Notes under the pieces: model-generated | Told to the model about the DNA's origin: nothing | Database searches by the model: none | What the model saw: only the letters and a program-made list of their open reading frames with translations | Source of the DNA: Methanobacteriota archaeon | GTDB lineage: Archaea > Thermoplasmatota > Poseidoniia > Poseidoniales > Poseidoniaceae | Length of the DNA stretch: 53,828 nt | Assembly: GCA_949514915.1 (NCBI GenBank) | Contig: CATFLP010000051.1 | Span: forward strand, 1 to 53,828 | Reading direction: 5' to 3' | Part shown: piece after piece, positions 3,622 through 53,828 of the stretch | Layout: the number at the start of each line of letters is the position of its first letter | Numbering within the stretch: position 1 is the stretch's first letter | Translations under genes and position numbers: made by a program

Positions 3622-6600
3622 TTATATCTTACGTTTCTTATTTAACCATTCATGTCCATAATGAATCCATTGTTCCATTGTCCAACCTGCAGGAATCCCT
3701 TCTGGAGGAATCGGAGGTGGCCCAAATGCCTTGGCACTAGGAGGTTTTGGAAGTGTAGGCATTTCTGGCAATTTAGGCACATTAGACGCAGGGGCCTCTG
3801 GCAATCCAGGTAAACTGGGCAAGGAAGGTAGTGATGGTTTACTTTGATTTAATGCTGCTTCAATTTCACTTTTATCTACTCCTCCTGAAATTACATCTTC
3901 TTCGTTACCACCAGAACTCATCAATAATTCCAAACGATCCCTTGAATTTGATTGAAATTCACTTGATTCAATTATGTCTTCTCCATCATCAAAACCTGAA
4001 ACTTTTCTTAATCTTGAGCCGGCTAATAATATCAAACATAAAACGACAATGACTATTGCTAATTGTCCTTCAATAGGCATACCTAATACTGAATTATTCT
4101 TTATTTCAACTTCTTGTGAAGATACTCTTAAAACCAATTCCCCAACCTCAATAGTACTATTTTCCAGATCATTCTCTAATGTACTAACCAAAACTAATTC
4201 TGTCAAAGAGCCCCCATCTTCAGGTACTAAAAGTATGCAAGGAATTAAAATTTCAGCACCTGCATCAAGTGAATTTGTAACACTAGAGCAAGTAATTTTC
4301 CAATCATTTTTAACATCAAAATCAATGTTTAACTCGCCCTCATAATTTCCAATATTAGTTGTCTTAATCAAAAATTCTTTTTCGAGACCAGGTTCTAAAT
4401 CAAAAAAATACGAATCTTCCAATAAAGATCCTCCAGAATCTACAAGTTTGAAATCCACTACTGTAGATGGTTTAACCACTACATTAAATTGTAAATTAGA
4501 AATATACTTCTGACCGCTTTCTAGTTCTGAAGTGGTTTTAATAATCACAAAATCTTCAACATCTACATTAATAATATGGCTTGTTTGTAAATACAATTTT
4601 ATTGATTTTTGTTCTGAAGATTTAATTAAACCAGGAGTATTTGATAAAAATGCAGACCAGCCCTCAGGAACTATTATTTCAGATTGATCTAACTTATTTT
4701 CAGAAGTTGTAGGCCAAATCAAAGGTAAATCCACATTACCTGTATTTTGAATAATAATATCACATGCTGTATCCTTCCCTGCAACAACAATACAAGGGTC
4801 ATCATACTGAATAACTTCTATCTTAGGCAATTCTTCCAAAATTAATCTTGTTGTATTTAGTGAATATTTAAATGGGTTAAGTTCAATTTTCAACTCTATA
4901 TCATTATAAGTTCCCATTACTGCATTTGATGGAACTAACATTTCAATTCGAATTGAAATTGATGATGCTATTGGCACTGAAAAAGATGTAGAATCCATAG
5001 GTTCATCATTAGATGATAAATACAATTGATAACTCCAATCTGTTTCAGATCTTTCTAAATTGAAATTCAAATCAAGAATTACATTCCCTGTATTCTCAAC
5101 ATCTAAGATTAATTCTACATTTTCTGAAGGTTTGACTATAAGACTAGGATTAGATAATGCAGGTTCAATGTTTTGGCCTTGATCATCATACAAAATGCTC
5201 TCAAAGGTTGCTTGTTCACCAACTGTAATTCTCATTAAAGTCTCATATCCATCTATAGTTCCAGCAACATCAATTACCGTACAATATACATCTTCCATTT
5301 GACCAACAGCAGGAGACCCACCTACAACACTAGGAACTCTTACTGATATTTCTGTAGATATATCATCTCCCTGATTTAATCTTTGCAATTCATATACATT
5401 AGATATTGAATCTCGCCCAACTCTTACTTCCCAATTAGATTCAGTAATACAACTTAATTCAAAAGTCGCAGGAGAATTCCCCGTATTGCGAATTCCTTGT
5501 GAAAATTTAGCCCAATCCCCTGGAACCCCAGTTTCAGTACCAGACCCTGCAATTACAACCTCAAGGTCTGCAATTGGGTTAATTAGCACTTCAAATTTTA
5601 ATGAATCAGTAACTAAGGGATTATTGATATAAGTAGAAACTACCTCAACAATTATTGTTTCAGCTGATGCATAATATTTAGGATTAGAGCTTAAATCAGC
5701 ATCTAAATTTTCTAAATTCAATGTAAATTCAACTATTGAACCTTCTGAGCCATCAGGAGCCATTGATATAACAGAACTCGATAAATTAATCTCAGTAGCC
5801 CATGCATCTGTAGTTTGTAAAGTGTACAATGGGTTTGTTTCATCGATAGCCCTTATTGAAAGGACGCTAAATTGGACATTTTCCGTTTCTGTACCTTGAT
5901 GTTCTAATCTAAAGTTTAAATCAATACTTGTTTCATTAAATGGATCTAAAATGTATTCTCTTTGAGTATCAATACTACCATTTAAATTCAACATTTCAAG
6001 ACGTACACCTTCTGCAGCAACTATAAAGGAAATATAGTAGACATTGTTATTTTCATTCAATTCATTTACTTCGTCATCTACATCAATAATTAATTGTAAA
6101 TCATGATGTCCAGTTACTGTAAATGTGTATGTGTCTTGAACACTATCTATACCTCCGCCTGCAAGAGAATTCATGGTTGTTGTAGGAATTATTATGTTTC
6201 CAGTAGTCATATCTAAAACAGTAACTTGATAGTTTCCTGTAGTTAAATTTGCTTGATTAACCCAATTTGCATTAATTAAAACAGGAGTGTTTACCATTGG
6301 AGTAGATTCACTAATCGTTAAACTACCAGAAATTACTGATAAATCGCTAGATGGTTCCTCCTGACCTAAGCCTGTAACTAAGAGAGAAAATGGTTGTGAA
6401 TTACCTCCTCTATGATGAATTTGTATTTGCCAAACACCAACTGAAGATGATTGTGTAGGATTAATTCGAATTCTTTCAAGATTGTTTATGTTATCTGATG
6501 TCCCGCTTGAAATCGAAATACCATTCGAAAAATCATTACCATAATATTCAGTTCCGTTAGGTGCTATTACCACTAAATCCAAATCATTGAGAAGTTTTGG

Positions 6601-8442
6601 GGAGGTCTGGAGTGAGCTTGAAGAAACATCCTCATCATTCCAAGCTAAAGTAACTTCAATTCCTTTACTTGAATCTAATTCATAAGCATAAATAAACATT
6701 CTACCAGGATTTAAGGACTGTGAGTCATCATACCAAGTATTTAGGGGAGTACCTGAATGTACAGGATAAAGAGAGTTTTCAAGATTTAATCTACCCCATC
6801 CTTCTAGTGGATTTGGTACATCAGAAGTTCCTAAATCATCGGCACCATGAACGAGTATGGCCTTAATTAAATCACTACCAGGTGAAGACATACCCAACTC
6901 TTCTCTTAGATACTGTCTTGTCAATACTGCTGCACCACTAACTACTGGAGTTGCTTGGCTAGCTCCTGATAATGACATATGTAATGGAGTAGTCCCATCA
7001 TCATGAAATGCACCTGTACAATCAACTCCTTGAGATGACGTTGCTTCTTGTGCTCTAGATGAACAAATATTCTCACCAGGTGCGACAAGATCTGGTTTTA
7101 TCCTTCCATCAAAAGTAGGACCTTGTCCAGAAAATGATGCGACAGAACCTGTCAAAGAATCTGTTGATGCACCTACAGAAATCGCATTTTTTGCAGTAGA
7201 TGGTGCTGCAACAGTATTAATTCCATTACTTCCATTATTTCCTGCCGAATATATCGCTGTGAAATCACGATTTTTCCAAAGAAATTTATCTACACTCTGA
7301 CTGTCACTGTTATATTGGCCACCTGCATTTTCTGAAACCCAACTTGTAGATTGAAACCTAGCACTATTGTCATAAGCATTTTGCATTAAATTGTAAATTG
7401 AACCAATACGCCCAATTACTCCTTGTTGATTATTTTCTAATTGGTACATATGTAAAGTGGCTGCAGGTGCTATTCCAAAAGCTTCTGATTCACCACTTCC
7501 ATCTCCTAAAAGAGTGCCTGTAACATGAGTTCCATGTCCTGAAATAGAATCACTAGGATTATTGTCAAGACCAAAGCCATTTTGAACCGCGATTAATTGA
7601 CTAGCATAATCACTGTGATCCATATCTAATCCTGTATCTACAATTGAAACTGTTTCACCGCTTCCGTTTAATCCAGAATTCCAATTATTCAATAATGATT
7701 GAATTCCTGATTGTTCCCCTGCTTGTGCATTTGTAAGAACATAAGATATTCGTGGTTCTATCCAGATAATTCGATCATCTGTTAACAAAGTTCCTAAATC
7801 TAATTTAGGGAATTTACCTAATTTAATAACACAATCCATCAGGTCACAAGAAATTAGTTCCATTCCAGATTCAACTAATTTAATCTTCAACAATTCTAAA
7901 TTAACCACATCTATATCTGGAGATAATACTGTGATTAATGTTAATGAATTTAATGATTCTTCCAAATTTAAAAGAGGATGTAACTTCCAACCAATTGGCA
8001 AATTATTGACCCAACGAACTTTGTCATCATGTTCTAATTTTGAAAAAGATTCGTCTGATGACACCTTCTTAATCATCCAAACATTAGTAGAAATCCTATC
8101 TAGAGGGATAAATCCATATTCTTCACTTAATCCCTTAATTAATTCTCCATTATTTGTTTTTAATTGTAATATTGACAATATTTCTGAATCAGCAAAATTC
8201 AATTTGGGTACTGGAGAGTTTTGGAACAATGGATCAAATTCTCCATAAGGGGACGGGATTTTTGGATTTAATGGATTTATTTCTGTTTCTTGTGATAAAA
8301 CTGGTGAACTAACATGCCAATTCTTAGACGATTCAGTAGCCCAACCATCAACTAGTTGCTCCTCATCTAATCCATTACTTGCAGAATATATAGGCAAAAG
8401 AAATAGCAAACAAAGCAGTATTGATATCGCCTTTCGGTTCAT
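3622..8442 (-). CDS. Membrane-anchored S8 subtilisin-like protease with Ig-like repeats
   Basis: A 1606-residue secreted protein. A signal peptide (residues 1 to about 21) and a roughly 220-residue prodomain-like region precede the S8 peptidase. The catalytic residues are Asp269 (VDTG), His303 (SGHGTH) and Ser495 (SGASQATP), with the oxyanion Asn near 402 (AGNN). The serine motif is GASQATP where most subtilases have GTSMATP. Then come a P-domain-like region, many CARDB/NEW3-like beta-sandwich repeats with NTGN loops, one transmembrane helix (about 1461-1477), and a cytoplasmic Pro-rich linker ending in GWTMEQWIHYGHEWL. ATG 8442 begins the signal peptide; an in-frame TTG nine bases earlier is less likely. 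It probably digests extracellular protein at the cell surface. Confidence 0.92.
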   Translation of the reverse strand: MNRKAISILLCLLFLLPIYSASNGLDEEQLVDGWATESSKNWHVSSPVLSQETEINPLNPKIPSPYGEFDPLFQNSPVPKLNFADSEILSILQLKTNNGELIKGLSEEYGFIPLDRISTNVWMIKKVSSDESFSKLEHDDKVRWVNNLPIGWKLHPLLNLEESLNSLTLITVLSPDIDVVNLELLKIKLVESGMELISCDLMDCVIKLGKFPKLDLGTLLTDDRIIWIEPRISYVLTNAQAGEQSGIQSLLNNWNSGLNGSGETVSIVDTGLDMDHSDYASQLIAVQNGFGLDNNPSDSISGHGTHVTGTLLGDGSGESEAFGIAPAATLHMYQLENNQQGVIGRIGSIYNLMQNAYDNSARFQSTSWVSENAGGQYNSDSQSVDKFLWKNRDFTAIYSAGNNGSNGINTVAAPSTAKNAISVGASTDSLTGSVASFSGQGPTFDGRIKPDLVAPGENICSSRAQEATSSQGVDCTGAFHDDGTTPLHMSLSGASQATPVVSGAAVLTRQYLREELGMSSPGSDLIKAILVHGADDLGTSDVPNPLEGWGRLNLENSLYPVHSGTPLNTWYDDSQSLNPGRMFIYAYELDSSKGIEVTLAWNDEDVSSSSLQTSPKLLNDLDLVVIAPNGTEYYGNDFSNGISISSGTSDNINNLERIRINPTQSSSVGVWQIQIHHRGGNSQPFSLLVTGLGQEEPSSDLSVISGSLTISESTPMVNTPVLINANWVNQANLTTGNYQVTVLDMTTGNIIIPTTTMNSLAGGGIDSVQDTYTFTVTGHHDLQLIIDVDDEVNELNENNNVYYISFIVAAEGVRLEMLNLNGSIDTQREYILDPFNETSIDLNFRLEHQGTETENVQFSVLSIRAIDETNPLYTLQTTDAWATEINLSSSVISMAPDGSEGSIVEFTLNLENLDADLSSNPKYYASAETIIVEVVSTYINNPLVTDSLKFEVLINPIADLEVVIAGSGTETGVPGDWAKFSQGIRNTGNSPATFELSCITESNWEVRVGRDSISNVYELQRLNQGDDISTEISVRVPSVVGGSPAVGQMEDVYCTVIDVAGTIDGYETLMRITVGEQATFESILYDDQGQNIEPALSNPSLIVKPSENVELILDVENTGNVILDLNFNLERSETDWSYQLYLSSNDEPMDSTSFSVPIASSISIRIEMLVPSNAVMGTYNDIELKIELNPFKYSLNTTRLILEELPKIEVIQYDDPCIVVAGKDTACDIIIQNTGNVDLPLIWPTTSENKLDQSEIIVPEGWSAFLSNTPGLIKSSEQKSIKLYLQTSHIINVDVEDFVIIKTTSELESGQKYISNLQFNVVVKPSTVVDFKLVDSGGSLLEDSYFFDLEPGLEKEFLIKTTNIGNYEGELNIDFDVKNDWKITCSSVTNSLDAGAEILIPCILLVPEDGGSLTELVLVSTLENDLENSTIEVGELVLRVSSQEVEIKNNSVLGMPIEGQLAIVIVVLCLILLAGSRLRKVSGFDDGEDIIESSEFQSNSRDRLELLMSSGGNEEDVISGGVDKSEIEAALNQSKPSLPSLPSLPGLPEAPASNVPKLPEMPTLPKPPSAKAFGPPPIPPEGIPAGWTMEQWIHYGHEWLNKKRKI

Positions 8443-40385: not shown

Positions 40386-43300
40386 TCATAATGTGCGGTC
40401 ATCATATCTTATTGCAGAAATGTCCCCTCTAACTCCATCATTCTCATCATTATGGACTTCATACCAATCAACCATCCAATCTCCATCAGTATCCCAGTTT
40501 GTCGGATCTGTTCCTTCTGCAGTAAAATCACCATCAATATCTAATACCCACCAACCAAACGGATATTGGCCTCTTCCAACATCTGGCAATACTGTGGAAC
40601 TGGAAACTAAACCATAACTATCAGTCCAATCTCCTCTGCAAATGGAAACATCATCTGCTGAATCCATTACAAAGAAATCATCATCATTATCCTGAATAAT
40701 CTTTGCATACATCAAATCTTGGCTGTCTCTTTTATTAATCTTTAAATAATTTTTATCCATTTCATCGTCTTCACCTAAATGTAACAACCATTTTCTAAAT
40801 TGCCACCATTCAGTAATTTCAACTCCATCCCATTGTAAATCAAGAGACCTTACAAGAGTTGCAGAACGATAGGTATCATCTGTAATTGCATAAAATTCTT
40901 GGAAATTTGAGTATTCATTATATTCGCAAACAACACCACTGCAGTCCCAATCTCCATCATTATCTGGATCCAGTAATGCATCCGTTGGATCTCTTGGATC
41001 TAAAGTAAACCAAGCCAATGATAAATCTGGCCTCATGATATTAATACCTTCAATTTTCAGTGGCTTTTTCTGTATACTTTCTTCAGCCCCCACATCAACC
41101 CATTCTACTGAAATATATCTTTGACTTGAAAAATTATCTAATGTCTCATTCCAAGCCATTGCATATTCATACCAATCTGGCAACATATCCCAATCAGTAT
41201 CATTATCCAATGGGTTTGTACCATATTTTAGAATCTCCCTTCCATCTGAAAGACTTCCATCTTGGTAATAATTTAATGTAAATGACTCTGTTCCCTCTCT
41301 TATTTTCATTTGGCTGTCATCATCACTATCATTCAAATGTGGATATGTTCCATTATCAAACTCCATACTATTTGTAAACGGTATGGCAATATTATCTAAT
41401 CCATATTGACCACCTGAAATAGAAAATATATGATTATTCCAATTTCCTTGTGCTGCAGGTGTATCTATTACAGATCTATCGTACCAACCATCCTGATCAA
41501 TATCATAATCTCCATCCAAAGGATTTAATGGATTTAATCCCCATCTTCCTTCGACAGTAAAAATATTATTATCTCTTGAAACCTGAATAGGTTCTGAAAT
41601 ATAAGTTGAATAGCAATATTCCCATCCATCTGGCATCCCATCACTATCTGAATCTGGGTGAGTAGGATCTGAAATTCCGATTAAACTGTTATTGAAATTA
41701 TTTTCATTTAATTCATTAATCTTCTCTAATCTATCTTGTGTTACTGGAAAGCCATCATGTAACTTTCCAGAGAATAATTCATACAATCGATTATTTGCTT
41801 GCTCATCATTAAGTCCTTCTTCTTCTGAAAGTGCTTTTGTAGCATCTGTTGCAAAATCATAGAATCCTAACTCTAACGGTATATTATATCGTTCTGCTTC
41901 TTTACCATATGTTCTTGCTTGCCATTCCCTTAAATTCGAATAGACCTCATAAACAGCAATTTCCCCATCTCCATCACAATCATAAGAATCATCATCAAGA
42001 TCAAGATAAATATCATTACTAATTAATGGATTCATAGACCAACGATTTTCTTCTAAATCCCATTCTGTAAACCAATATTCATAACCATCTAACATCTCAT
42101 CCCTATCTGTATCATTATGTGTTGGGTCAGTAATTGAACGTAATGTCTCTAAAATCAGTGTTGGGGGATCTCCTGTTTGCCAATCAATTAAATCTAATTT
42201 AACTAATGTTGCTCTATTTTCTGTATTATTAAGTATGTTTCCTACACGTGAAAATTCTGTTCCAGACATTTGTTCTTCTGCATCTAAGTAAAAGATTGGT
42301 GCATCAGGTGGATGCGAAACTCCATTTTCAGGCAAACCATCTGTTAAAGACAACTCTTGACGATCAGTTAATCCATCATTATCTGAATCATAATCTCCAT
42401 CTCCAGCAACTAATGGATTTAATGTCCAAATACCATCATTTGAATCCCAATCCGTTAGAAGCATCTCTAATCCATCAAGCATACCATCTCCATCTGTATC
42501 TGGATTGTTTGGATCACAACTCATGCCACTACTCTCTAAAATATCTGCATCAATAAATGATCCAAAACTCAAATTCGTGGTAATTCTCCCCCACACTTGA
42601 GTATCAAAACCACTTACTGTATTCGATTGCTTAATGTAATATTTTGGAGAAAATTGTAAATGTATTTCATTATATTCTGGGTTTATTGAATTATATTCTT
42701 CCCAGTTAGAATAACCATCTGAATCTGCATCACTATATTTATCATTTTCAGTCAATGGATTCAAAGTCCATTTATTCCCAACAACATCCCATCTAGCATG
42801 CCAAATCTCCCAACCATCTGGCATTCCATCATTATCTGAATCAGGAGAAATCGGATTTGCTGAACCTTTATCTTGATCATTTTGTGAATTTAACAGTGTT
42901 GGGCTAGCTAATTCACCAAAGGTAAATACAGGATCATATGAGTCATGAGTGCGCTGCCATAATTGAGTAAAAATACCAAATGGAAGTGTTGATGTTTCAC
43001 TATCATTTTCATTGAAAAATGATGTGTCTTTAATATGATACTCAAGATAATTATTAAATTGCTCATCTGGTTCTAATATTCCATTATGATTTGCATCATA
43101 ACCGTCTCCATCTGGGTTTCCAATAGCATCACTTCCATTTAATGGGTTTATGCCTTTTACATCGCTTGACCAATAACAAGAATTGCCATCAGGATCATTT
43201 GGATTATTATCTAGAGCTTCCCAACCATCTGGTAAAGTATCTCCATCACTATCTATGTTATTTGGATCTAAAGTACTCCATTCTAATTCTACAGCCTCAG

Positions 43301-46094
43301 CAGATTCTCCATGTGAATCAAATAAATTACCTGATAATCCCTCCAGATATATTTGACCCCAAGCAAATTCACAAATGTTGCTCAATCCATCACCATCTGC
43401 ATCCCACAGTGCATCATCTGGCCTTAATGGATCTAAAGACCAATTATTACCTCCAGTGTATGTAGTACCTACCCATCTACGGTTTTCAATCTCCCAACCG
43501 TCTGGCATTCCATCTCCATCTGTATCATTATTCGTTGCATCTAGTGGCGAATCTGAGCCTCCAGTCAATAAATATGAATCGGCTGCACCATTATTTGCAT
43601 CACAAACATACTCATGCTCAACAATATAATGACAATCAAACTCAGTCATCCCATAATAAAAACCAAAAAATTCCATTCCATCATTAATTCCATCTCCATC
43701 TGTGTCTGGATCTCTTGGATCAGTACCTGGATACCCTGCTTCAGTAGTAGGTTGATATCTAAATTCATCTAAATTATTCCAATCTTGTTCGAAAAATGAA
43801 TTTTGTTCTCCATCTAAATTAAGTCCATCAGCATCTGGATCTAACAAGGCATCAGTTGGATCTGTAGGATCTAATGCATATGCATATTCCCAACCATCTG
43901 GAATTCCATCAAAATCAGAATCATTATTTCCTGGATCAATTAATGCAATATTAGAAAATCTTCCAGGATCTACAGCACCGAGAAAATAATTTGTACCATT
44001 CACATTTAATTCTGCTAACGAAACTACTCTTCCTGTAATAGATTCTTGGACTCCTTGATTGAAAGATGCCAAAGCTCCGCCAACTAATTTCCATGAACCT
44101 CCTTGTGAACCAACTAATACATTATTATCTAAAGGTAAGATTGAGTGAACGTCATTCATTTTTTCACTAAGTGTGTGTTCTAAAGAACCGCTATGTGTTA
44201 ATTGATTATTACTTAATGTTAGTAAATGAATTCCAGAACCAGTACCAATCCATAAATGAGTTGCTTCATTTCCTCCAGTATTGTCTGGCACAATAGTTCT
44301 AACTTCAAATAAATTTAATTCGTGTTCATATGTTAAATTTCTCAAATTATTTGTATTATAAGGATCAAACATCCATTCTAAATTTAAAACTCCTATTCCA
44401 TCAGATGTTTCAGTTTTAATTAATCCTTTATCTGTTCCAATAAATAATGTTGGTTGACCATTAACCGAAACATGAACTAATGAAGTAGGTATTGCAGTAG
44501 TAAAACTGAATTCATCAAACAAACCATCATCTAAAACATTTTCAGATCCTTCTTTTAATTCACCTGTGTTTTTAATTTCAAAAACATAACCTGTATCTAA
44601 ACCAAGTGTAATTAATCTTTGATCCCCTCCAGAATCAATTAATGTGTTTAAGACATGCAATTCTCCTAAATCAAAGTGATCTACATCTCCATTTAAAACT
44701 CCACCTTTATCTAAATGCATACTATAAATTCCATCAGTAGTTGCCATTATCACTGCACCACGGCCAAATTCATTCTGAACTAATACCATGTCATTCATTT
44801 CTACACCATTAGGCAACAATAAATCATCTACAAGCATTTCATTCATATTGAATACAGACAAACCTACTTTAGTTCCAACATAAACAAGGGATTTTTCTCC
44901 ATCTTCAAATGTGTCCAATTTTCTTACATCATGACTTGAAATTTTAATCTCCGTTGTTTTATCATAAAGAGCAAGTGTGTCTTTTAATGAGCCATCCAAT
45001 ACTGTTTTCAAACCACCCCTAATAGAATCTCCACTATCTTCTGAAACTAAATATTCCTCTAGATTACTAAATGCTTCACCACCACATTCAATTAATCCTT
45101 CTGAAAAACAGGTATTGACTATGTCTGTTGTTAAATCACGTGTTACTTCTCCATTATTTGTCAAATCCCAACCATCTGAATCTGTATCTTCAAGATTATC
45201 TTTTTTATTGTGTGGATCTAATCCAAAATAAACTTCCCAACCATCTGGAATCTCATCCCCTCCAGGAGAATATTCAAGACCTCCAACTTCAGACCATCTA
45301 AAGAAATCTCCATCTGGGTTTAACGGGTCTGTCCCTCTCCATCTTGAATTATATCTTTCATCAATATCTTCTTCCATCTTGTCATACCACAATCCATCAA
45401 TTTCCGTCATCCATTCTGGTGGGATTCCATAATTGTATTCAGCTGAATTATTGTAATATTCATTTGGTTCTATTGTACCATCCCTATCGATATCAAATCC
45501 ATCTTCATCATAGTCTTCAGCACCATCTGAACCATTTAATGGATCAAAAAGTGGGCAAGACCACCTCCCTTCAATCATACCTCCAGCGTTTTCCATACAC
45601 ATTTGGACTTCATAACCATCTGGCATTCCATCACCATCCGTATCTGAACTTGTAGGGTCTAAATAAAGTCTGAAGCCACCTTCAGGATCTAGTGGATCCT
45701 CTCCTGTTAAACCAGTCCTATTTGTAAAACAATCAACTACAAGATATGGCCAACAATATTCTTCAACATTTTGCAAACCATCATTATCCATATCTAAATC
45801 TAATCCTGATGAACCATCAGGATCATATTCTCCATCTGAACCATTAGTATAATCCATTCCTTGTATTGTTTTTTGTCGTCCATCTATTGAAATTGCATCC
45901 CAAGAATCACCAAATTGTTGTTCCCATACATCAGGTATTCCATCACGATCTGTATCTGTAACTGGAGGTGGGCCTTGATTAGCATCTTCAGGGTGAACAT
46001 TTTGAACTGATTGAATTGAAGGTAATTGAGACATTGTCAATAATAAAAATACCATTATTGAAGTGACAATAAGAGTTGTTTGCTTGCGACGCAT
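40386..46094 (-). CDS. Giant secreted protein with calcium-binding TSP3-like repeats and a beta-propeller-like region
   Basis: 1902 residues, with a signal peptide (about 1-31) and no terminal membrane anchor. I count 13 units of the type DxDxDGxPDGWE (for example DTDGDGMPDGWE, DSDNDGMPDGWE, DTDWDMLPDWYE), each a DxDxD calcium loop of the thrombospondin type 3 / dockerin style followed by a Trp-Glu. A separate block of about 380-730 reads like a beta-propeller (VYVGTKVGLSVFN, FIGTDKGLIKT, LWIGTGSGIHLLT). ATG 46094 has AAGGAT just upstream. It is probably a long calcium-stabilised rod on or near the cell surface, acting in adhesion or as a scaffold. Confidence 0.9.
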   Translation of the reverse strand: MRRKQTTLIVTSIMVFLLLTMSQLPSIQSVQNVHPEDANQGPPPVTDTDRDGIPDVWEQQFGDSWDAISIDGRQKTIQGMDYTNGSDGEYDPDGSSGLDLDMDNDGLQNVEEYCWPYLVVDCFTNRTGLTGEDPLDPEGGFRLYLDPTSSDTDGDGMPDGYEVQMCMENAGGMIEGRWSCPLFDPLNGSDGAEDYDEDGFDIDRDGTIEPNEYYNNSAEYNYGIPPEWMTEIDGLWYDKMEEDIDERYNSRWRGTDPLNPDGDFFRWSEVGGLEYSPGGDEIPDGWEVYFGLDPHNKKDNLEDTDSDGWDLTNNGEVTRDLTTDIVNTCFSEGLIECGGEAFSNLEEYLVSEDSGDSIRGGLKTVLDGSLKDTLALYDKTTEIKISSHDVRKLDTFEDGEKSLVYVGTKVGLSVFNMNEMLVDDLLLPNGVEMNDMVLVQNEFGRGAVIMATTDGIYSMHLDKGGVLNGDVDHFDLGELHVLNTLIDSGGDQRLITLGLDTGYVFEIKNTGELKEGSENVLDDGLFDEFSFTTAIPTSLVHVSVNGQPTLFIGTDKGLIKTETSDGIGVLNLEWMFDPYNTNNLRNLTYEHELNLFEVRTIVPDNTGGNEATHLWIGTGSGIHLLTLSNNQLTHSGSLEHTLSEKMNDVHSILPLDNNVLVGSQGGSWKLVGGALASFNQGVQESITGRVVSLAELNVNGTNYFLGAVDPGRFSNIALIDPGNNDSDFDGIPDGWEYAYALDPTDPTDALLDPDADGLNLDGEQNSFFEQDWNNLDEFRYQPTTEAGYPGTDPRDPDTDGDGINDGMEFFGFYYGMTEFDCHYIVEHEYVCDANNGAADSYLLTGGSDSPLDATNNDTDGDGMPDGWEIENRRWVGTTYTGGNNWSLDPLRPDDALWDADGDGLSNICEFAWGQIYLEGLSGNLFDSHGESAEAVELEWSTLDPNNIDSDGDTLPDGWEALDNNPNDPDGNSCYWSSDVKGINPLNGSDAIGNPDGDGYDANHNGILEPDEQFNNYLEYHIKDTSFFNENDSETSTLPFGIFTQLWQRTHDSYDPVFTFGELASPTLLNSQNDQDKGSANPISPDSDNDGMPDGWEIWHARWDVVGNKWTLNPLTENDKYSDADSDGYSNWEEYNSINPEYNEIHLQFSPKYYIKQSNTVSGFDTQVWGRITTNLSFGSFIDADILESSGMSCDPNNPDTDGDGMLDGLEMLLTDWDSNDGIWTLNPLVAGDGDYDSDNDGLTDRQELSLTDGLPENGVSHPPDAPIFYLDAEEQMSGTEFSRVGNILNNTENRATLVKLDLIDWQTGDPPTLILETLRSITDPTHNDTDRDEMLDGYEYWFTEWDLEENRWSMNPLISNDIYLDLDDDSYDCDGDGEIAVYEVYSNLREWQARTYGKEAERYNIPLELGFYDFATDATKALSEEEGLNDEQANNRLYELFSGKLHDGFPVTQDRLEKINELNENNFNNSLIGISDPTHPDSDSDGMPDGWEYCYSTYISEPIQVSRDNNIFTVEGRWGLNPLNPLDGDYDIDQDGWYDRSVIDTPAAQGNWNNHIFSISGGQYGLDNIAIPFTNSMEFDNGTYPHLNDSDDDSQMKIREGTESFTLNYYQDGSLSDGREILKYGTNPLDNDTDWDMLPDWYEYAMAWNETLDNFSSQRYISVEWVDVGAEESIQKKPLKIEGINIMRPDLSLAWFTLDPRDPTDALLDPDNDGDWDCSGVVCEYNEYSNFQEFYAITDDTYRSATLVRSLDLQWDGVEITEWWQFRKWLLHLGEDDEMDKNYLKINKRDSQDLMYAKIIQDNDDDFFVMDSADDVSICRGDWTDSYGLVSSSTVLPDVGRGQYPFGWWVLDIDGDFTAEGTDPTNWDTDGDWMVDWYEVHNDENDGVRGDISAIRYDDRTL

Positions 46095-46269
46095 TATCCT
46101 TACCTGACGGCCATCCGACAAAACTTTACCAACTCAAATACCTTATGATACTGATGGAACAATGTTCATACAAAATTATTGCCCGTAACCACAAATTAGT
46201 TGTTTAATCTAACATTTTTTTATTTGTTTGTCGATTAGTTCAAAGTCTTATCGCGTCCCGTGTAAAGGG

Positions 46270-47079
46270 ATGTCCGTCTCCATTACGCACCTAGGTTCTG
46301 GTAGCCGGGGTAATTCAACACTAATTTCCAGTGAAAATGGGAATGTTCTAATTGATAATGGGTTTTCAGGAAGGCAGTTAGAAAAAAGATTAGCAAGAAT
46401 GGAATTAAAACCAACAGATATTGATTGTATGCTTATTTCTCACCACCATGGAGATCATGGAGGTGGTGTTGAATATGCAATGAGGAAATGGGACATTCCT
46501 GCAAAAATGAATTATTTCACTGCAGAAAAATTAGGCGTACTAGACAAAAGCAACCTTGAGATTTTTGAAAGTTTAGATAGGTTAGAAATATTATCTGACG
46601 TTACATTCTTACCCTTCCCTGTTCCACATTCTGGCGCAGAAAACGTGGGTTTTTCGATAGTAACAAAAAGCGGGGAAAAAACATGTGTCGTTACTGATTT
46701 AGGTAGTGAAACTGATGAAGTAATCAAACACATGCAAGGTTGCTCGCATATATCAATAGAATCAAATTATGATTTAAGGCGTCTACTTTCAGGCCCTTAC
46801 CCTGACAAATTAAAAAATAGAATTATGGGTAGAGGTGGCCATTTATCAAATAAACAAACAGGTAAATTGTTATCTAAAATTATTGGACCTGAAACTAAAA
46901 GCATAGTTCTAACTCATCTTTCTGAGAAAAATAATCAACCACATCTTGCAGAGAGTACTGTTTTATACCATATTGACGACATTTTCACCGGTGACATCGC
47001 AATATCTCTGCAAGACGGTCCTGAATTTAGCCATTTTTTGGGACAAAGTGAACATGAAAAAATGTCTATAAAGATATAA
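46270..47079 (+). CDS. MBL-fold metallo-hydrolase (YycJ-like)
   Basis: 269 residues of the metallo-beta-lactamase fold. LGSGSRGNSTLI opens it; the metal site SHHHGDHGGG sits near residue 71, and later HSGAENVGF, VTDLG and VLTHLSEKNNQPH supply ligands. It resembles the YycJ/WalJ group, whose bacterial members are proposed exonuclease-like proteins. ATG 46270 preserves the fold start; an in-frame TTG 42 bases upstream adds an unrelated basic stretch. It diverges from the giant protein gene and ends 18 bases before the first pilin gene. Confidence 0.9.
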   Translation: MSVSITHLGSGSRGNSTLISSENGNVLIDNGFSGRQLEKRLARMELKPTDIDCMLISHHHGDHGGGVEYAMRKWDIPAKMNYFTAEKLGVLDKSNLEIFESLDRLEILSDVTFLPFPVPHSGAENVGFSIVTKSGEKTCVVTDLGSETDEVIKHMQGCSHISIESNYDLRRLLSGPYPDKLKNRIMGRGGHLSNKQTGKLLSKIIGPETKSIVLTHLSEKNNQPHLAESTVLYHIDDIFTGDIAISLQDGPEFSHFLGQSEHEKMSIKI

Positions 47080-47085
47080 TTAAAA

Positions 47086-47090
47086 GGAGG
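47086..47090 (+). promoter_or_regulatory. Strong Shine-Dalgarno of the pilin operon
   Basis: GGAGG with seven bases to the ATG at 47098. It is one of the clearest ribosome binding sites in the window, and implies efficient translation of the first pilin-like gene. Confidence 0.75.
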
Positions 47091-47097
47091 ATAATCA

Positions 47098-48132
47098 ATG
47101 AAAAGAAATTTACAAAATGATGATTCTGCACTTAGTGACATTATTGGAATGGTAATGTTACTAGCAATGATTGTTATTGTATTATCTTCCGCGATAATAA
47201 TATTACAACCATATGTCGCTGACTACGATGATAATAAGAATTGGTCCCAAGCTAAAGTAATCGCTGATCAAATAGATGAACGAATCAGATTAGTAGGGGC
47301 GTCCCCTCAAGATACTGGTTCGATTCAAACATTTGAATTGGCATCTACATCAATCTCTGGATTAGTTAATGCAGAATTTTGGACAATCTCAGGAGACGTA
47401 TATGGCTTAGACATTATTGAAGTTACATTATCTTCTTTTAATTCTGTTAATGTGAACTCGATAAACAACACTGCCACATATGCAAAAGTGAATAATGGAG
47501 GAAACATCACAACCCACACATTAATTTTTGAAAATGGTACCGCAAGTGTAAATTTTGAGAAATATATGGATAAATTATTAATTGTTGAAATTTTAAACAT
47601 TGATTCAGAAGTTATTCATAAATTTGTTCGTTTAGAATTATCAGGAATTGGAATAGATACATCATTATCAACTGGCAATTTCGATATTGATCTAGTAAAT
47701 GGAGCAAGAATGGAAAAATTATATGGGGAAGCATACAAAGTAAAAAGATATCCTTCATTAAGACATTATTCTATGCCTGATGATTCTCAACAACTTAGTT
47801 TCGTACTGGTTGACATAGACATGAGTATGCTTTCTGGAAGTTCAAATTCATTTAGTTTACAAATGGTGTCTGAAGGGCCTCTTGAACTATTTGATGGTGA
47901 AGTTAGAAACATTAGAATGAGTATGAGTAATGAGATTGATGAATCTATGACTGATAGATACATGTCTAATTGGATGGAAGATTACAATATGAATTTAGCT
48001 TCTGGGACATTAGAATCTTATGAGGGTTTAGGCCCTTGGAAAAGAGTCTCTGGAATTGATGGATTTGGTATTCATCCTCTGGAAAAAGCAATATTAACTG
48101 AAATTGTACTCCACAGGGTTGTGATAAAATGA
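47098..48132 (+). CDS. Archaeal type IV pilin-like protein 1
   Basis: 344 residues. A short charged leader (MKRNLQNDDSALSD) leads directly into a class III hydrophobic segment (IIGMVMLLAMIVIVLSSAIIIL, about 15-36), as in archaeal type IV pilins and archaellins. About 300 beta-rich extracellular residues follow. The prepilin peptidase site would lie in the SALSD region, but an exact cut site is not certain. A strong ribosome binding site precedes it. It overlaps the next gene by four bases (ATGA). It resembles haloarchaeal pilin-like families more than archaellins. Confidence 0.8.
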   Translation: MKRNLQNDDSALSDIIGMVMLLAMIVIVLSSAIIILQPYVADYDDNKNWSQAKVIADQIDERIRLVGASPQDTGSIQTFELASTSISGLVNAEFWTISGDVYGLDIIEVTLSSFNSVNVNSINNTATYAKVNNGGNITTHTLIFENGTASVNFEKYMDKLLIVEILNIDSEVIHKFVRLELSGIGIDTSLSTGNFDIDLVNGARMEKLYGEAYKVKRYPSLRHYSMPDDSQQLSFVLVDIDMSMLSGSSNSFSLQMVSEGPLELFDGEVRNIRMSMSNEIDESMTDRYMSNWMEDYNMNLASGTLESYEGLGPWKRVSGIDGFGIHPLEKAILTEIVLHRVVIK

Positions 48133-50372
48133 AACGCTTGAACAGCCTAGTCATGGATAAAAATGCTGCTAATTCCGCAATTGCAACTGTTCTAATGTTT
48201 GCTGGTGTAATGAGCATTATTAGCGTCATGCTTGTTTCAATAGTTCCTGTAATTAATGAATTGCAAGGGGCTATCGAGGCTAACGATGCTGTTGCACAAT
48301 TTGAAGATTTATCGGAATATGAGGCACAATTAGCCCAAAGAGGATTACCTGGAAGTTCATCTGAAATGAGATTAGAACCAGTGCTTGGAAAGCTTGAATG
48401 GGATTTAAAGGATGCAGGAGTTTGGTTTTCATCAGCATGGGTTGATGATTCAGAATTCAGATTAAGAAATGCTGGGAATTTCGGAAATGAATTTGACATC
48501 AGATATCCATCAGGGAAATTAAGTTCTTACTGCATGGATGATTTACATCTTCAATACGAATCTAAATGGAAATATGAATTACCTGCAATAGAAGGAAAAA
48601 TTATCATTTCTACAAAATCTCAAATTTCATCGGCAATTACTTCCTCTGTTGTAACTATAATACAAGGTGATGAGTTATTAACATCAAAAATCAATAACGA
48701 TAATATTTTAGAAATAGATTTGCCATTGGAAAATTCAAACAGTAAATCAACAATAATTAGTGATGTTGAATTGACAATTCTATACAAATTAGGCGAGGGA
48801 GGAACTACTTTCATAACACCAAATAATCCAAATCACAAAGGATTGGGGACTATTTGGAAAATTCCATTACCAGCTGGAAACAACAATATCAATCTAATTA
48901 CAGAGAATAATGCTATGATTACTTGGGAGTTAGAAAATGAGAAAATGACTGAAAGTACATCTTTAATAGGAGATGGTGCCATCTGGTCAAAAAATTTCAA
49001 TAATAGTGATTCAAAAATCTTAACAATTGAATCTTCAAAACATGCTAATTTAGTATTACAAACGGACATAGAATCTAATCTTGGCTCAGTTAATTGGCCA
49101 TCTACAGAGGGGATTATGCTAGGTAATGAATTTCTAATCCCTCCATTAGAAGGAACATTAATAATTTCAAATCATGATAATTCTCCAGCACAAATTGATG
49201 TTCAAGGTTCTAGTTTTTCAATCAATAGTAATGGCATGTATAAATTAGATTGGCCAATTGCGGGAACCAATGGAATTACAAAAATCTCAAGTAATTCCGA
49301 AATTGTAATCAAATGGACTAAAGATGTATCCATTAATAATGGACTTCTTTCTAATGGAATTTCATATCTTGTTGCTAAGGACACAGGACAATTTTCAGGG
49401 AAAGAATTCTCTACTAGTTGGACTGGGGAACAAATTGAAAATAATGAAGCATCAATTTATGCAACACTTACTGGATCGAGAGCATCATTTAATTTTTCAG
49501 GTGTTTTTAATGCAACAGGAAACTTAGAAAGTACAATTGGCAATTCATATTTTCTTTCATCTCAAGAATCTGGCGAGTTGAATTCAACAGTAACTTCTGG
49601 ACATTCCATGAGATTAATGCAAATAGTTGGAAATGCTGGAATTACAGAACTAATTGACAAAGGTTCTCAAAGATGCCTTCCTCTTTCATTATTTGCCTCT
49701 GGTTGGATTAATATCGATTTACCTTGGTATGATGTTAGCGAATTAACTCTTTCAGGAGTTAGAGACGCCTGGGAAAATGGAGATCATCATTCAGGTATAA
49801 ATATACAATTAATTGGAGAAAATGACATTACTTCATTTTCATCACTTGCTGATGCATGGGTAATTCAGATACCATCTCTAAAATATAAATTTTCAAGTAG
49901 TATTTCAAATTTAGAAGTTGTCGACAAAGGAGGAATAGTAACAACAAATCATCCAGAAGCAAGGCCATCTGTGTCACATTCTGCTTTATCTGCTAAAGGC
50001 AATTCAAACTTATTGGGAGTGCACTTGCCAGTAATGATGCCTACTTCTCAGAGTATGACTAGCGGTTCTTCTGATGTAAAAGTACAATTGAAAGTAATTG
50101 AAACAAAATATTGTACTAATGAAATTTCAAAAAATGTTCGCATGGGTTGGAATGATCAATACGGAAGTAGTATCACAAATTGGCTTTCAGAAGACCTTGA
50201 ATATTCTGATGATTGGATTTCCTATCCAAACCAATTTGATTTACTATCTGATTACACTGGATGGGTTGATCGAAGTAATGGGGAAGCTGTATACCATAGT
50301 CCAAATAATGACATAGATTTCACATTAACATTTACATCAATTTCATTCGATGCAACGGAGGAAGGCGGATGA
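48129..50372 (+). CDS. Large pilin-like surface protein 2
   Basis: 747 residues. The leader (MKRLNSLVMDKNAANS) and hydrophobic segment (AIATVLMFAGVMSIISVMLVSIVPVI, about 17-42) match type IV pilin-like N-termini. A short amphipathic helix and a stretch (GKLEWDLKDAGVWFSSAWVDD, in part) precede roughly 600 residues of beta-rich repeats with many Ser, Asn and Ile. It is far larger than a normal pilin, so it could be a tip adhesin or minor pilin. Its start and stop overlap both neighbours as ATGA, so the triad is translationally coupled. Confidence 0.78.
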   Translation: MKRLNSLVMDKNAANSAIATVLMFAGVMSIISVMLVSIVPVINELQGAIEANDAVAQFEDLSEYEAQLAQRGLPGSSSEMRLEPVLGKLEWDLKDAGVWFSSAWVDDSEFRLRNAGNFGNEFDIRYPSGKLSSYCMDDLHLQYESKWKYELPAIEGKIIISTKSQISSAITSSVVTIIQGDELLTSKINNDNILEIDLPLENSNSKSTIISDVELTILYKLGEGGTTFITPNNPNHKGLGTIWKIPLPAGNNNINLITENNAMITWELENEKMTESTSLIGDGAIWSKNFNNSDSKILTIESSKHANLVLQTDIESNLGSVNWPSTEGIMLGNEFLIPPLEGTLIISNHDNSPAQIDVQGSSFSINSNGMYKLDWPIAGTNGITKISSNSEIVIKWTKDVSINNGLLSNGISYLVAKDTGQFSGKEFSTSWTGEQIENNEASIYATLTGSRASFNFSGVFNATGNLESTIGNSYFLSSQESGELNSTVTSGHSMRLMQIVGNAGITELIDKGSQRCLPLSLFASGWINIDLPWYDVSELTLSGVRDAWENGDHHSGINIQLIGENDITSFSSLADAWVIQIPSLKYKFSSSISNLEVVDKGGIVTTNHPEARPSVSHSALSAKGNSNLLGVHLPVMMPTSQSMTSGSSDVKVQLKVIETKYCTNEISKNVRMGWNDQYGSSITNWLSEDLEYSDDWISYPNQFDLLSDYTGWVDRSNGEAVYHSPNNDIDFTLTFTSISFDATEEGG

Positions 50373-50842
50373 AGAAAAAAATTGATTTTACAGATGATGA
50401 ATCTGGTGCTGCAACTGAATTAGGTTATGTTTTTACATTTCTTCTAGGACTTTTATTGCTTTCATTATACTCATTATGGGCATGGGATATTGAAAATTCT
50501 ACTAGAGAAAGATGGTCTGAAGTTGCACTTACTGAAAATGTTGAACGTGTGGGTTCAGCTATTGAAAGAGCAGATGCTGTTGCAAGAATTAATCCAAATG
50601 CCACATATTCAGAGCAAATAGATTTACTAAACGTAGAACAGTCTTCTGTAAACATAATTATGTTATTAGATGATGATGAACTAACTATAACTCACCCGAA
50701 TTTTAAAGTTCCTTTTGAATTTAAATTAACTTCTGCAGCACCTACAACACATATTGGAGAAATCAATCTCAAAGGTGAGTCTTCCATATGGGTTCATATG
50801 TCTAATGGAATTATTGAAATTTCTAATAAGCCAATTAGTTAA
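50369..50842 (+). CDS. Small pilin-like protein 3
   Basis: 157 residues. The leader MKKKIDFTDDESGAATEL precedes the hydrophobic segment GYVFTFLLGLLLLSLYSLWA. The pattern matches the small type IV pilin-like proteins of haloarchaeal secretion-pilus clusters, followed by a helix STRERWSEVALTENVERVGSAI and a beta domain. It is the last gene of the triad. Its stop codon TTAA is shared with the convergent STAND regulator. No assembly ATPase or membrane platform gene is in the window. Confidence 0.8.
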   Translation: MKKKIDFTDDESGAATELGYVFTFLLGLLLLSLYSLWAWDIENSTRERWSEVALTENVERVGSAIERADAVARINPNATYSEQIDLLNVEQSSVNIIMLLDDDELTITHPNFKVPFEFKLTSAAPTTHIGEINLKGESSIWVHMSNGIIEISNKPIS

Positions 50843-53361
50843 TTTCCAGTAATTGCCTTATGAAACATCATCTGTACTTCCTGCATTTTTCTAGTTGCTC
50901 CTACTTCTCTAAATACATTTAATGCCCTCTGTAGATATTCCATTCTACGTTGTTTATCAAATCCTGTAGTTCCTAATCTTGATAATAATTCACCTACTAA
51001 AAGTGGCTGATTACTAGATTCAGCTAGTGCAAGCCCCTCAAGATATCTTTCTACTGCTTCATCTCTTTTACCTGAATCTTCAAGTACTTCGCCAAGTAAC
51101 AAAATTAACTCTACTCTAATTTCAAGATCATCTTCGTTAGCAAGTGATTGTAATGTTTCTAAGTAGTGATTTAATGCTAAATCAGTATCTCCAATTAATG
51201 CATAATATCTTCCAAGTACTGCTCTTGCACGAGAATGTGTTATTTCATCTCCTTTAGATTGTGTTTCATCAAATGCTTTTAGAGCGTGTTCACGCCCTAA
51301 TTCTAGTTTATCCATTTCTAAATATGAACGGGCTAAATTTATTCTCGCATGTACTAAATTTTCATCTTTTTCATTTGCAAGTATATGTTCAACTTCAGAA
51401 TGTGAATCTATTGCAAGTTGTTTCTTGCCCTCTGATCTAAAAATATAACTCATATTTGTATAAGTATTACATGCCCCAATAGAATCTTTAATTGCAATAA
51501 ATCTCTTTAATGCCTGTCTATGAAGATCTAATGCTAACTTACTATCTCCTCTTTTCCAAGCAAGTTCAGCTAAACTAGAAAGTAAAGTGCTTTCTAAAGT
51601 AATATCTTTAGCCTTATTTGCATTATCCATAGCAACTGTAAATGATGCTTCTGCTCCACCAAAATCACCTGATAATGCTAAAATTTCTCCTCTCAAATAC
51701 CATAATTTACCCCATGTTTTTGCTGGACCATTTGAGTCAATTAATCGATTTATTAATCCTAATAATTCTAATTGCCCTGAATTAATTAATTCATCACCCC
51801 TTAATGCAACTTCTTCAGCAGCAGATTCTACGTCTGCATAACTTATTTTGTGATGCAAATATTCAATAATATCTTGAGTAGAATTTAGTTTCTTTTTGTA
51901 CCATTCTGCCGCTGATGTATGGAGAGGTATAGCTACTTGTTCATCTATTCCATTAAATGTAAATTCTCTAATCAAATCATGAACATCATAATTCTCTGAA
52001 TCTACTCTTCTCGCCAATCCTTGTTCGACTAAATTATCAAGTGTATTTAAATCTAAATCAATTGTAGTTAAAGCCTCAAGAGGTATTGGTTCTCTAAAGA
52101 TTGCAAGTGATTGTAATAGTCTTTTTTCTTCAGCAGACAGTTTATTGAAAATCTCCATCGAAACATAATTTTCTAAAGTTAAATGGTGCTCAATTGTAGA
52201 TGCACCTCTATTAATTAACTCTAATACCAAAGGATGACCTTTTGAAATCCCATAAATTCTTTCGAAATCATCATCTCCAATACTCTCGAATGATTTTAAA
52301 ATATTTTTTGAAGACTCTGGATCCAAACCGTCAAGTGGTAAAATTTTACTGACGCTTTTACCATTTTCATCTCTAAGTGGTATCACTGGACGATAAGATC
52401 TTGAAAAGATCACTAAACCTAAACCATCACTCATTTCATTAATCCTTAATGTAAAATTATAGATAATTTTGTAAAATATATCTTCATCATTTTTATGATA
52501 GTCATCTATCACAATTAATGCGTGAATATTCTGTAAGCAGCTAACAAGTAGTTCTACTGTTTCATCAATTCTTGGAACTGGGCTTGCTTCTAAATAATCA
52601 TTTAATGCATCTACACCAATTGAACTAAGCCATGCAGCTAAATCTTCTAAAAATGGCCTTCCACCAGTTCCTAATTGGCAACGATGATAAATTAAATTCC
52701 TTCTAAATGTATAATTTTCTAATAATTTAGATGCTAAACTTGTTTTTCCAATTCCAGCAATCCCTGGAATTAATATTGCAAAAGGACCCTCGTCTAAAGT
52801 TTCGGTAATTGCCTGTAATTCTGTTACTCTACCATAAAAATGTCTTAATCTAGGTAAATCTCCTAAAGAGGATGATAGTTGTTTTTCAACCCTTTTTGTT
52901 AAATCTCTTTCTATTAATTCAGGTGTCAATTTTGTAATATCTAAAACTCCGTCATCCCTTAAATAACGAAGTATATCAACTGGACGTATTTGAAACGGTA
53001 ATATTTCATTAGAAGTACCTAAAGTTGTTTCGATTAATTCTTCTTCATTTGATAAAACAGTAAATTCATGTTTACTTAATCTATTCCATGTTTCATCAGC
53101 ATGTTCCGAACCTGCACTTGTTAAGAAATATGATTTCCTTTTCCTCATTACTCCAGATACATGTGCTTGACGTTCAATTAACAATCCTTGCTCCTTTAAT
53201 CCAGAAATTGCACGTGGAACATTACTTCTTGCAATTGCAACTGCATTTGCTATTCCCATCTGAGATAATGCAAATGGCACCTCTACAGATTCAATGAATG
53301 CAACATAGTCTCTAAGATGTAATAGTATCCTTTCCTGAACTCCTGGTTTTGGATTGTTCAT
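50839..53361 (-). CDS. wHTH-STAND NTPase-TPR signalling protein
   Basis: 840 residues in three parts. The N-terminal winged helix (about 8-85) contains IAIARSNVPRAISGLKEQGLL-like DNA-binding features. A STAND/NB-ARC-like NTPase follows, with Walker A GIAGIGKTS (200-208) and Walker B ALIVIDD (281-287), then a winged-helix relay. About ten TPR-type helical pairs (about 510-835) complete it. STAND proteins are switches released by ligand binding to the repeats. GGTGG five bases upstream supports the start. It is convergent with the pilin-like genes and might control them, but that is inference. Confidence 0.92.
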   Translation of the reverse strand: MNNPKPGVQERILLHLRDYVAFIESVEVPFALSQMGIANAVAIARSNVPRAISGLKEQGLLIERQAHVSGVMRKRKSYFLTSAGSEHADETWNRLSKHEFTVLSNEEELIETTLGTSNEILPFQIRPVDILRYLRDDGVLDITKLTPELIERDLTKRVEKQLSSSLGDLPRLRHFYGRVTELQAITETLDEGPFAILIPGIAGIGKTSLASKLLENYTFRRNLIYHRCQLGTGGRPFLEDLAAWLSSIGVDALNDYLEASPVPRIDETVELLVSCLQNIHALIVIDDYHKNDEDIFYKIIYNFTLRINEMSDGLGLVIFSRSYRPVIPLRDENGKSVSKILPLDGLDPESSKNILKSFESIGDDDFERIYGISKGHPLVLELINRGASTIEHHLTLENYVSMEIFNKLSAEEKRLLQSLAIFREPIPLEALTTIDLDLNTLDNLVEQGLARRVDSENYDVHDLIREFTFNGIDEQVAIPLHTSAAEWYKKKLNSTQDIIEYLHHKISYADVESAAEEVALRGDELINSGQLELLGLINRLIDSNGPAKTWGKLWYLRGEILALSGDFGGAEASFTVAMDNANKAKDITLESTLLSSLAELAWKRGDSKLALDLHRQALKRFIAIKDSIGACNTYTNMSYIFRSEGKKQLAIDSHSEVEHILANEKDENLVHARINLARSYLEMDKLELGREHALKAFDETQSKGDEITHSRARAVLGRYYALIGDTDLALNHYLETLQSLANEDDLEIRVELILLLGEVLEDSGKRDEAVERYLEGLALAESSNQPLLVGELLSRLGTTGFDKQRRMEYLQRALNVFREVGATRKMQEVQMMFHKAITGN

Positions 53362-53424: not shown

Positions 53425-53828
53425 TCAAAACCTATTTCTATATTGCTCCGCATAATCTCTTGCAGTTTTTTCATCATAACCTTGAGATATTAATTGCTGA
53501 ACATAAGCTTCTAATTTAGGATTTGGATCAGTATTCATCTGAACTTGAGGTGTTTGAGTAATTTGTTGCTGCTGATGATTTCCCCAAGCATAAGTATCTG
53601 CTGCAACATCAGTCTTATTTTGCCCTTCAGAAAAGTCCATCTCATCCTCATCTTCAAATTCAACAAAGAAATATGCTAAAACTGCTAATAATGCAACTAA
53701 GGCCACAAGACCTATCAATAATTTAACCCACAAAGACATTCCTTGATCAGGGCTCTCAACACTTATTCCATTAGCAACATTATAAGGATCACTAGCATAT
53801 TCAAATTCAATATCAATTATTCCTCCCC
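53425..53828 (-). CDS. C-terminal part of an anchored protein (5' end beyond right edge)
   Basis: The frame is open to the right edge with no earlier stop, so the ATG at 53739 is probably internal. Visible are a short acidic extracellular segment (SDPYNVANGISVESPDQG), one transmembrane helix (MSLWVKLLIGLVALVALLAV), an acidic patch (EFEDEDEMDF), a Gln-rich linker, and the tail LEAYVQQLISQGYDEKTARD followed by YAEQYRNRF. This is the layout of an extracellular protein with a C-terminal anchor. The tail resembles a small helix-turn-helix, UBA- or SHOCT-like motif. The extracellular domain is unseen. Confidence 0.75.
   Translation of the reverse strand, partial: GGIIDIEFEYASDPYNVANGISVESPDQGMSLWVKLLIGLVALVALLAVLAYFFVEFEDEDEMDFSEGQNKTDVAADTYAWGNHQQQQITQTPQVQMNTDPNPKLEAYVQQLISQGYDEKTARDYAEQYRNRF

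Follow-up and report, generated by a model that had tools for sequence, protein, structure and literature searches.

Three pilin-like proteins of a planktonic archaeon as probable minor subunits of a type IV pilus encoded at two loci

The DNA analyzed here is a stretch of 53,828 nucleotides from a Poseidoniales archaeon (contig CATFLP010000051.1), which is called the window in its full length. Its segment from 46270 to 53361 carries three consecutive genes, designated PIL1, PIL2, and PIL3 (collectively, the triad), which lie behind an MBL-fold hydrolase gene and converge on the gene of a wHTH-STAND-TPR protein. We propose that PIL1, PIL2, and PIL3 are probably pilin-type minor subunits of a euryarchaeal type IV pilus of clade 2 (PilB4-like), the genes of which are split between two loci, the window and a cluster on another contig (C67). 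The conserved feature is real. The triad genes are ordinary in kind: the euryarchaeal type IV pilus is known, and what would be new is its division between loci and the one giant pilin. The host seems to belong to the abundant, uncultured planktonic Marine Group II. Attachment of these archaea has been discussed in terms of archaella (PMC6461757, PMC8821943, and PMC12413366), and in a limited open-access search of the literature we came upon no account of type IV pili for them.

Architecture of PIL1, PIL2, and PIL3

PIL1 (47098–48132, + strand; 344 amino acids), PIL2 (48129–50372, +; 747 amino acids), and PIL3 (50369–50842, +; 157 amino acids) have the lengths and the order behind the MBL-fold hydrolase gene that were given in the initial annotation, and the ATGA overlap by which it considered them coupled is present at both the PIL1/PIL2 and the PIL2/PIL3 junctions. 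On direct reading of the sequence, a Shine–Dalgarno-like AAGGAGG (47084–47090, +) precedes PIL1.

As in archaeal type IV pilins (class III signal peptide), a short charged leader is followed by a hydrophobic stretch in all three proteins, and this arrangement is conserved in the 19–20 sequences compared for each. One PIL1 relative starts with DERAVSEIMGVTMLLAMV, which is similar to the start of archaeal PilA. The AlphaFold (AF2) model of PIL1 (predicted local distance difference test [pLDDT] score, 85) consists of one long N-terminal helix (residues 6–68) followed by all-β domains, and that of PIL2 (pLDDT, 82; predicted template modeling score, 0.83) consists of a helix (residues 3–71) followed by β domains, the first 40 residues of this model being of low confidence (score 44–66). 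The pilin-like N-terminal helices that the first reading of the sequence led one to expect are therefore found in the predicted folds of PIL1 and PIL2, and both models combine the long helix with a C-terminal β region in the manner of archaeal type IV pilins. Against the PDB, the PIL1 model gave no match at E ≤ 0.001, with only local Ig/FNIII-like matches in its ectodomain, and the PIL2 model gave nothing informative; its low E-values were accompanied by TM-scores near 0.1 and root-mean-square deviations of 12–44 and were given no weight. The PIL1 and PIL2 profiles matched no PDB chain by sequence.

The identification of PIL1, PIL2, and PIL3 as pilin-like filament subunits is supported, and the three proteins most likely belong to a hair-like filament, as its minor or its tip subunits. 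PIL2 is unlikely to be the repeating subunit because its ~670 residues of β domains are too large. Membership of the triad in an anti-phage system was considered and rejected: PADLOC matched none of the three proteins, and its matches to the MBL and STAND proteins were weak, short, and of the general-fold kind.

Conservation of the triad among relatives

STAND neighborhoods were sampled from 40 relatives. The triad order is conserved in 26 of these loci and is partial only where contigs end, and the PIL1–PIL2 ATGA overlap is kept in nearly all of the triad-bearing ones. Because order and overlap are kept even though the identity of PIL1 and PIL2 outside the genus is only ~30%, the feature is beyond chance. 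All sampled genomes of the family to which this genome belongs (f1) show the order MBL > PIL1 > PIL2 > PIL3 >< STAND as far as the contigs extend. In the other family (f2), the triad occupies the same site in four genera (g15, g17, g19, and g22), and the MBL and STAND genes are adjacent and convergent, with no triad, in 13 sampled loci where both genes are visible. Profile searching detected PIL3 in 79 of 117 genomes (f1, 68/70; f2, 11/47), including one (G078) in which an antisense open reading frame had displaced it during the picking of reading frames (locus L068). The triad, the lack of which in relatives would have spoken against the initial annotation, is thus conserved. PIL3 converges on the STAND gene with 3–133 bp between the matched ends in 78 of the 79 triad genomes; in the 79th, the two genes are on separate contigs. 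Among 390 genomes of the phylum, full-length PIL2 is confined to f1 and f2, and a few other genomes match it in the first 40–100 residues only.

Since the same site is occupied in both families, the triad appears to be ancestral and to have been lost in part of f2. The two families probably correspond to Poseidoniaceae (f1) and Thalassarchaeaceae (f2), because their archaellum pattern resembles that reported by Rinke et al. (PMC6461757), who reported an archaellum for every genus of one family and half of the other and attributed adhesion of Poseidoniales to it.

Assembly machinery elsewhere in the genome

The assembly machinery, which the initial annotation had placed outside the window, is indeed encoded elsewhere in the genome (1.79 Mb, 85% complete). 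A prepilin peptidase gene is present on contig C3 (Peptidase_A24, PF01478 over the cut-off; FlaK-like), with a second homolog on C95, and there are three ATPase/platform clusters. The cluster on C48 resembles that of the archaellum. C12 encodes a TadA-like ATPase, two short platform proteins, and a PilA pilin. C67 encodes a PilB-like ATPase, two platform (T2SSF) proteins, and two small pilin-like proteins (pA and pB), and its order ATPase–PilC1–PilC2–pA–pB recurs in relatives where the contig reaches and no antisense frame was picked. The C67 ATPase is 40–44% identical to haloarchaeal PilB over ~400 amino acids; the C12 ATPase is ~31% identical and no nearer to haloarchaeal PilB than to the archaellum ATPase. 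Judged on identity, C67 has the ATPase closest to haloarchaeal PilB together with a TadC-type platform, as expected of clade 2 (PilB4-like) systems. The triad, C67, and C12 loci are hundreds of kilobases apart in the single-contig genome G014.

PilA-type genes adjoin the C12 ATPase gene in genome G005 and are near it in G014; they stand directly behind it in one genus and ~6 kb off in another (L216:10528-11106 and L217:10443-10940). Upstream of the C67 ATPase gene, this genus has a gene for a 1,946-residue protein with F5/8 type C and SPRY domains (L012:11273-17113, − strand), the place of which is usually taken in other genera by a small kinase-like gene.

Relationship to the haloarchaeal PilB–PilC operon

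Plasmid records contain a haloarchaeal PilB–PilC operon followed by five pilin-like genes, in which Pfam recognizes DUF7287, DUF7288, DUF7261, DUF7266, and DUF7289. A genome scan with PilC as the query yielded 80 haloarchaeal loci, many of which keep the order PilB–PilC–DUF7287–7288–7261–7266–7289. We found no literature on DUF7266, DUF7287, DUF7288, or DUF7289. Profiles were compared by hhalign with six haloarchaeal families. The best match of PIL3 was DUF7266 (84.8% over 140 columns), a profile relation over the full length. PIL1 and PIL2 matched DUF7289 best (92.5% and 92.8%, respectively), over N-terminal columns only (63–79 for the two proteins; 79 for PIL2). For the C67 proteins, the best matches were DUF7261 for pB (57.6%) and DUF7288 for pA (23%, the best of six), and pA–pB follow the haloarchaeal 7288–7261 order behind the platform genes. 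The archaellum controls FlaF and FlaG matched none of these families, and PilA of this order matched haloarchaeal PilA at 97% and also, over ~40 N-terminal columns, PIL1 at 88% and PIL2 at 95%. In view of these controls, the relation of PIL3 to DUF7266 is the firmest family assignment, whereas PIL1 and PIL2 might not be true relatives of DUF7289 but large proteins of the PilA kind. On these profile similarities, the minor-pilin set looks split over two loci, C67 and the window.

The haloarchaeal operon, exemplified by Haloferax mediterranei plasmid pHME505 (L096), thus holds DUF7288, 7261, 7266, and 7289 members that have profile-level relatives here. In both systems the small pilins are directly behind the platform gene. 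However, the pilins here are at two unlinked loci, the platform is encoded by two genes instead of one, DUF7287 was not recognized, and there are two DUF7289-like genes, one of which encodes 747 residues. Whereas a clade 2 PilB–PilC operon would carry the DUF72xx minor pilins itself, only two small pilins are at C67, and the triad is elsewhere in every genome examined. The haloarchaeal operon is presumably of the PilB4 type because of its long ATPase.

Distribution of the pilus genes and weighing of the assignment

In f2, the triad, the C67 ATPase, the C12 ATPase, and PilA-type (Pilin_N) proteins share one and the same set of 11 genomes out of 47. A few f1 genomes miss one or other gene, and genome incompleteness can explain these gaps. 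On the STAND tree, the presence or absence of the triad changes once, leaving only one independent pair in the independent-pair test; the co-occurrence therefore has no statistical support and is weak evidence alone. The value of 5.7e-11 for the 11/47 co-occurrence ignores relatedness and was not used.

Several observations weigh against the assignment of PIL1, PIL2, and PIL3 to a C67-type pilus. The shared distribution of the triad, C67, and C12 amounts to one coordinated loss that coincides with smaller genomes, and C12 and PilA fit the distribution of the triad as well as C67 does. All three proteins score below the Pfam gathering cut-offs: for DUF7289 (PF23960; 27 bits), PIL1 reached 11.0 bits and PIL2 16.6 bits (E = 0.006), and for DUF7266 (PF23928; 27.6 bits), PIL3 reached 17.3 bits (E = 0.004). 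The DUF7289 matches cover the N-terminal columns only, the N-termini of PIL1 and PIL2 resemble PilA of their own order about as strongly, and the matches of the C67 small pilins are weak. The tip position, processing, and adhesion of the three proteins are inferred only.

C67 is favored over C12 because of its homology to the haloarchaeal operon and not because of its distribution. It is unlikely, but deserves consideration, that the triad serves the TadA-like C12 system or is shared by both systems. The C12 ATPase and the triad coincide in distribution, PilA-type genes stand beside or near the ATPase gene, and the N-termini of PIL1 and PIL2 are PilA-like; moreover, Makarova et al. 2016 (PMC4858521) report that the two types of euryarchaeal pilus have arCOG02911 in common and that pilins encoded in trans can serve ATPase/TadC pairs. 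On the other side, no DUF72xx-like small pilins are in view at C12, its ATPase has no special closeness to haloarchaeal PilB, and the relations of PIL3 to DUF7266 and of the C67 small pilins to their counterparts indicate the PilB–PilC–DUF72xx operon type.

That the triad is the minor-subunit set of the archaellum is very improbable, even though the genome itself has the archaellum-like cluster on C48 and the archaellum is held responsible in the literature for the adhesion of these archaea (PMC6461757). The two distributions diverge in both directions: the archaellum ATPase is present in nine f2 genomes, four of which are shared with the triad set, and the triad occurs without a FlaI match in genera g17 and g22 and FlaI without the triad in g14 and g21. 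In addition, minor pilins are encoded within the archaellum cluster itself, and these match no triad family. We likewise give little credence to a type II-like secretion pseudopilus aiding the release of exoenzymes; pseudopilins share the protein architecture, and genes for large secreted proteins of peptidase-like type are present in the window, but no secretion-specific model matched PIL1, PIL2, or PIL3, with no search made for other secretion genes, and such archaea, as is established, lack an outer membrane that a piston mechanism would have to cross.

Proposed model

In the model that we favor, C67 would supply the ATPase, the two platform proteins, and two small pilins, and the window would supply the remaining three pilins. 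The leaders of PIL1, PIL2, and PIL3 would be cut by a PibD-type peptidase, the gene for which is present. The C67 ATPase and platform would then pull the hydrophobic helices so exposed, predicted in PIL1 and PIL2, out of the membrane. The three proteins, perhaps with the C67 small pilins, may form an initiating or tip complex, which would sit on a filament of PilA-type major pilins encoded elsewhere in the genome. PIL2 would be located at the tip, where particles or cells could be bound; an adhesive function may be envisaged for this protein, the model of which has no informative PDB match. The overlapping start and stop codons would hold the three subunits at a fixed ratio. A wider proposal, which we put forward tentatively and with considerable doubt, is that these ocean archaea attach mainly by the C67 pilus together with the triad, PIL2 serving at the tip as a giant adhesin, anchored by its pilin part, for particles or phytoplankton, and that the streamlined f2 clade abandoned the pilus system entirely in a single step.

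Should the split pilus set prove real, its genes could be tracked in particle-attached and free-living fractions, and pilus-bearing and pilus-less genera could be separated independently of the archaellum. It would also mean that a pilus gene set forming one operon in haloarchaea can break into distant loci yet stay together in evolution.

Comparison with other pilus systems

In the euryarchaeal pili described by Makarova et al. (PMC4858521), the minor pilins vary in length, and the ATPases work with pilins encoded in trans. Their arCOG02911, which may be identical with DUF7289, is a duplication-prone minor pilin of variable length (~250–550 amino acids) with a probable Ig-like fold. By description, PIL1 and PIL2 share with it the pilin N-terminus, a probable Ig-like β ectodomain, variable length, and duplication, whereas PIL2 (747 residues) exceeds the reported range. 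The adhesion pili of Haloferax assembled by PilB3–C3 from PilA (PMC6491452) likewise use pilins encoded away from the ATPase and platform, and the Haloferax work on PilB1 and PilB3 supports the mixing of pilin sets. PilA-type pilins are present here as well. However, the Haloferax PilB3 locus carries no pilins, and the C67 ATPase is just under the PilB3_C cut-off (24.7 versus 27 bits). Bacterial minor pilins with the PilY1 tip adhesin offer a functional comparison only, that of a minor-pilin set presenting one large tip protein; PIL2 has its own pilin helix, and the likeness is not one of sequence.

Neighboring genes and other pilin-like proteins

The convergent neighbor (50839–53361, −; 840 amino acids) is, as the initial annotation held, a DNA-binding STAND NTPase, in which Pfam finds HTH_Crp_2, AAA_16, nSTAND6, and TPR_12, and it does share a stop tetranucleotide with the triad (TTAA, 50839–50842, at the end of PIL3). 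The suggestion that it is a dedicated sensor-regulator, forming a unit with the triad, is not supported. The STAND gene is present in 117/117 genomes, including 38 without detected PIL3, and cannot therefore be dedicated to the triad; in genomes that lack the triad, its identity is similar and it directly adjoins the MBL gene. There is accordingly hardly any chance that the triad and STAND make up one regulated surface-sensing unit, despite the convergent, near-overlapping genes in 78 of the 79 triad genomes, because STAND holds the same position against MBL in the 13 triad-less loci. STAND is presumably an independent core gene, its convergence on the triad being incidental, and its universality is compatible with regulation of the triad where both are present.

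The MBL-fold hydrolase (46270–47079, +; 269 amino acids; ATG start at 46270; Pfam Lactamase_B, 2.7e-14) is probably outside the pilus set, since triad-less relatives retain it. Divergent from its gene is that of a 1,911-residue protein with many DxDxDG calcium-binding-like repeats (40386–46121, −), which stays beside the MBL gene whether the triad is present or not. At the other end of the window, an edge-cut open reading frame (53425–53826, −) encodes the C terminus of a protein that has ~980–1,480 residues, or more, in close relatives. Contig C98 of the same genome carries a shorter wHTH-STAND paralog directly behind another MBL-fold-like hydrolase (L218:3936-4703 and 4703-6190); it is 26% identical over residues 7–467, and both STAND genes of the genome thus have an MBL-type neighbor.

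C98 (L218) also has two tandem PilA-type genes of 190 and 701 amino acids. Giant surface proteins of these archaea terminate in a transmembrane segment that is followed by a short acidic linker and then by a PilA-type pilin (DDDAAVSPVIATILMVAITVVL...). They form open frames of ~4,600 amino acids in many relatives and of 2,518 amino acids in this genome, and were located at L214:2-1792 (+), L215:13823-15499 (−), and L219:1-2028 (+), and at C116:4511-4678 in this genome. The giant protein looks fused to the pilin, and a prepilin peptidase could cut the acidic linker between them.

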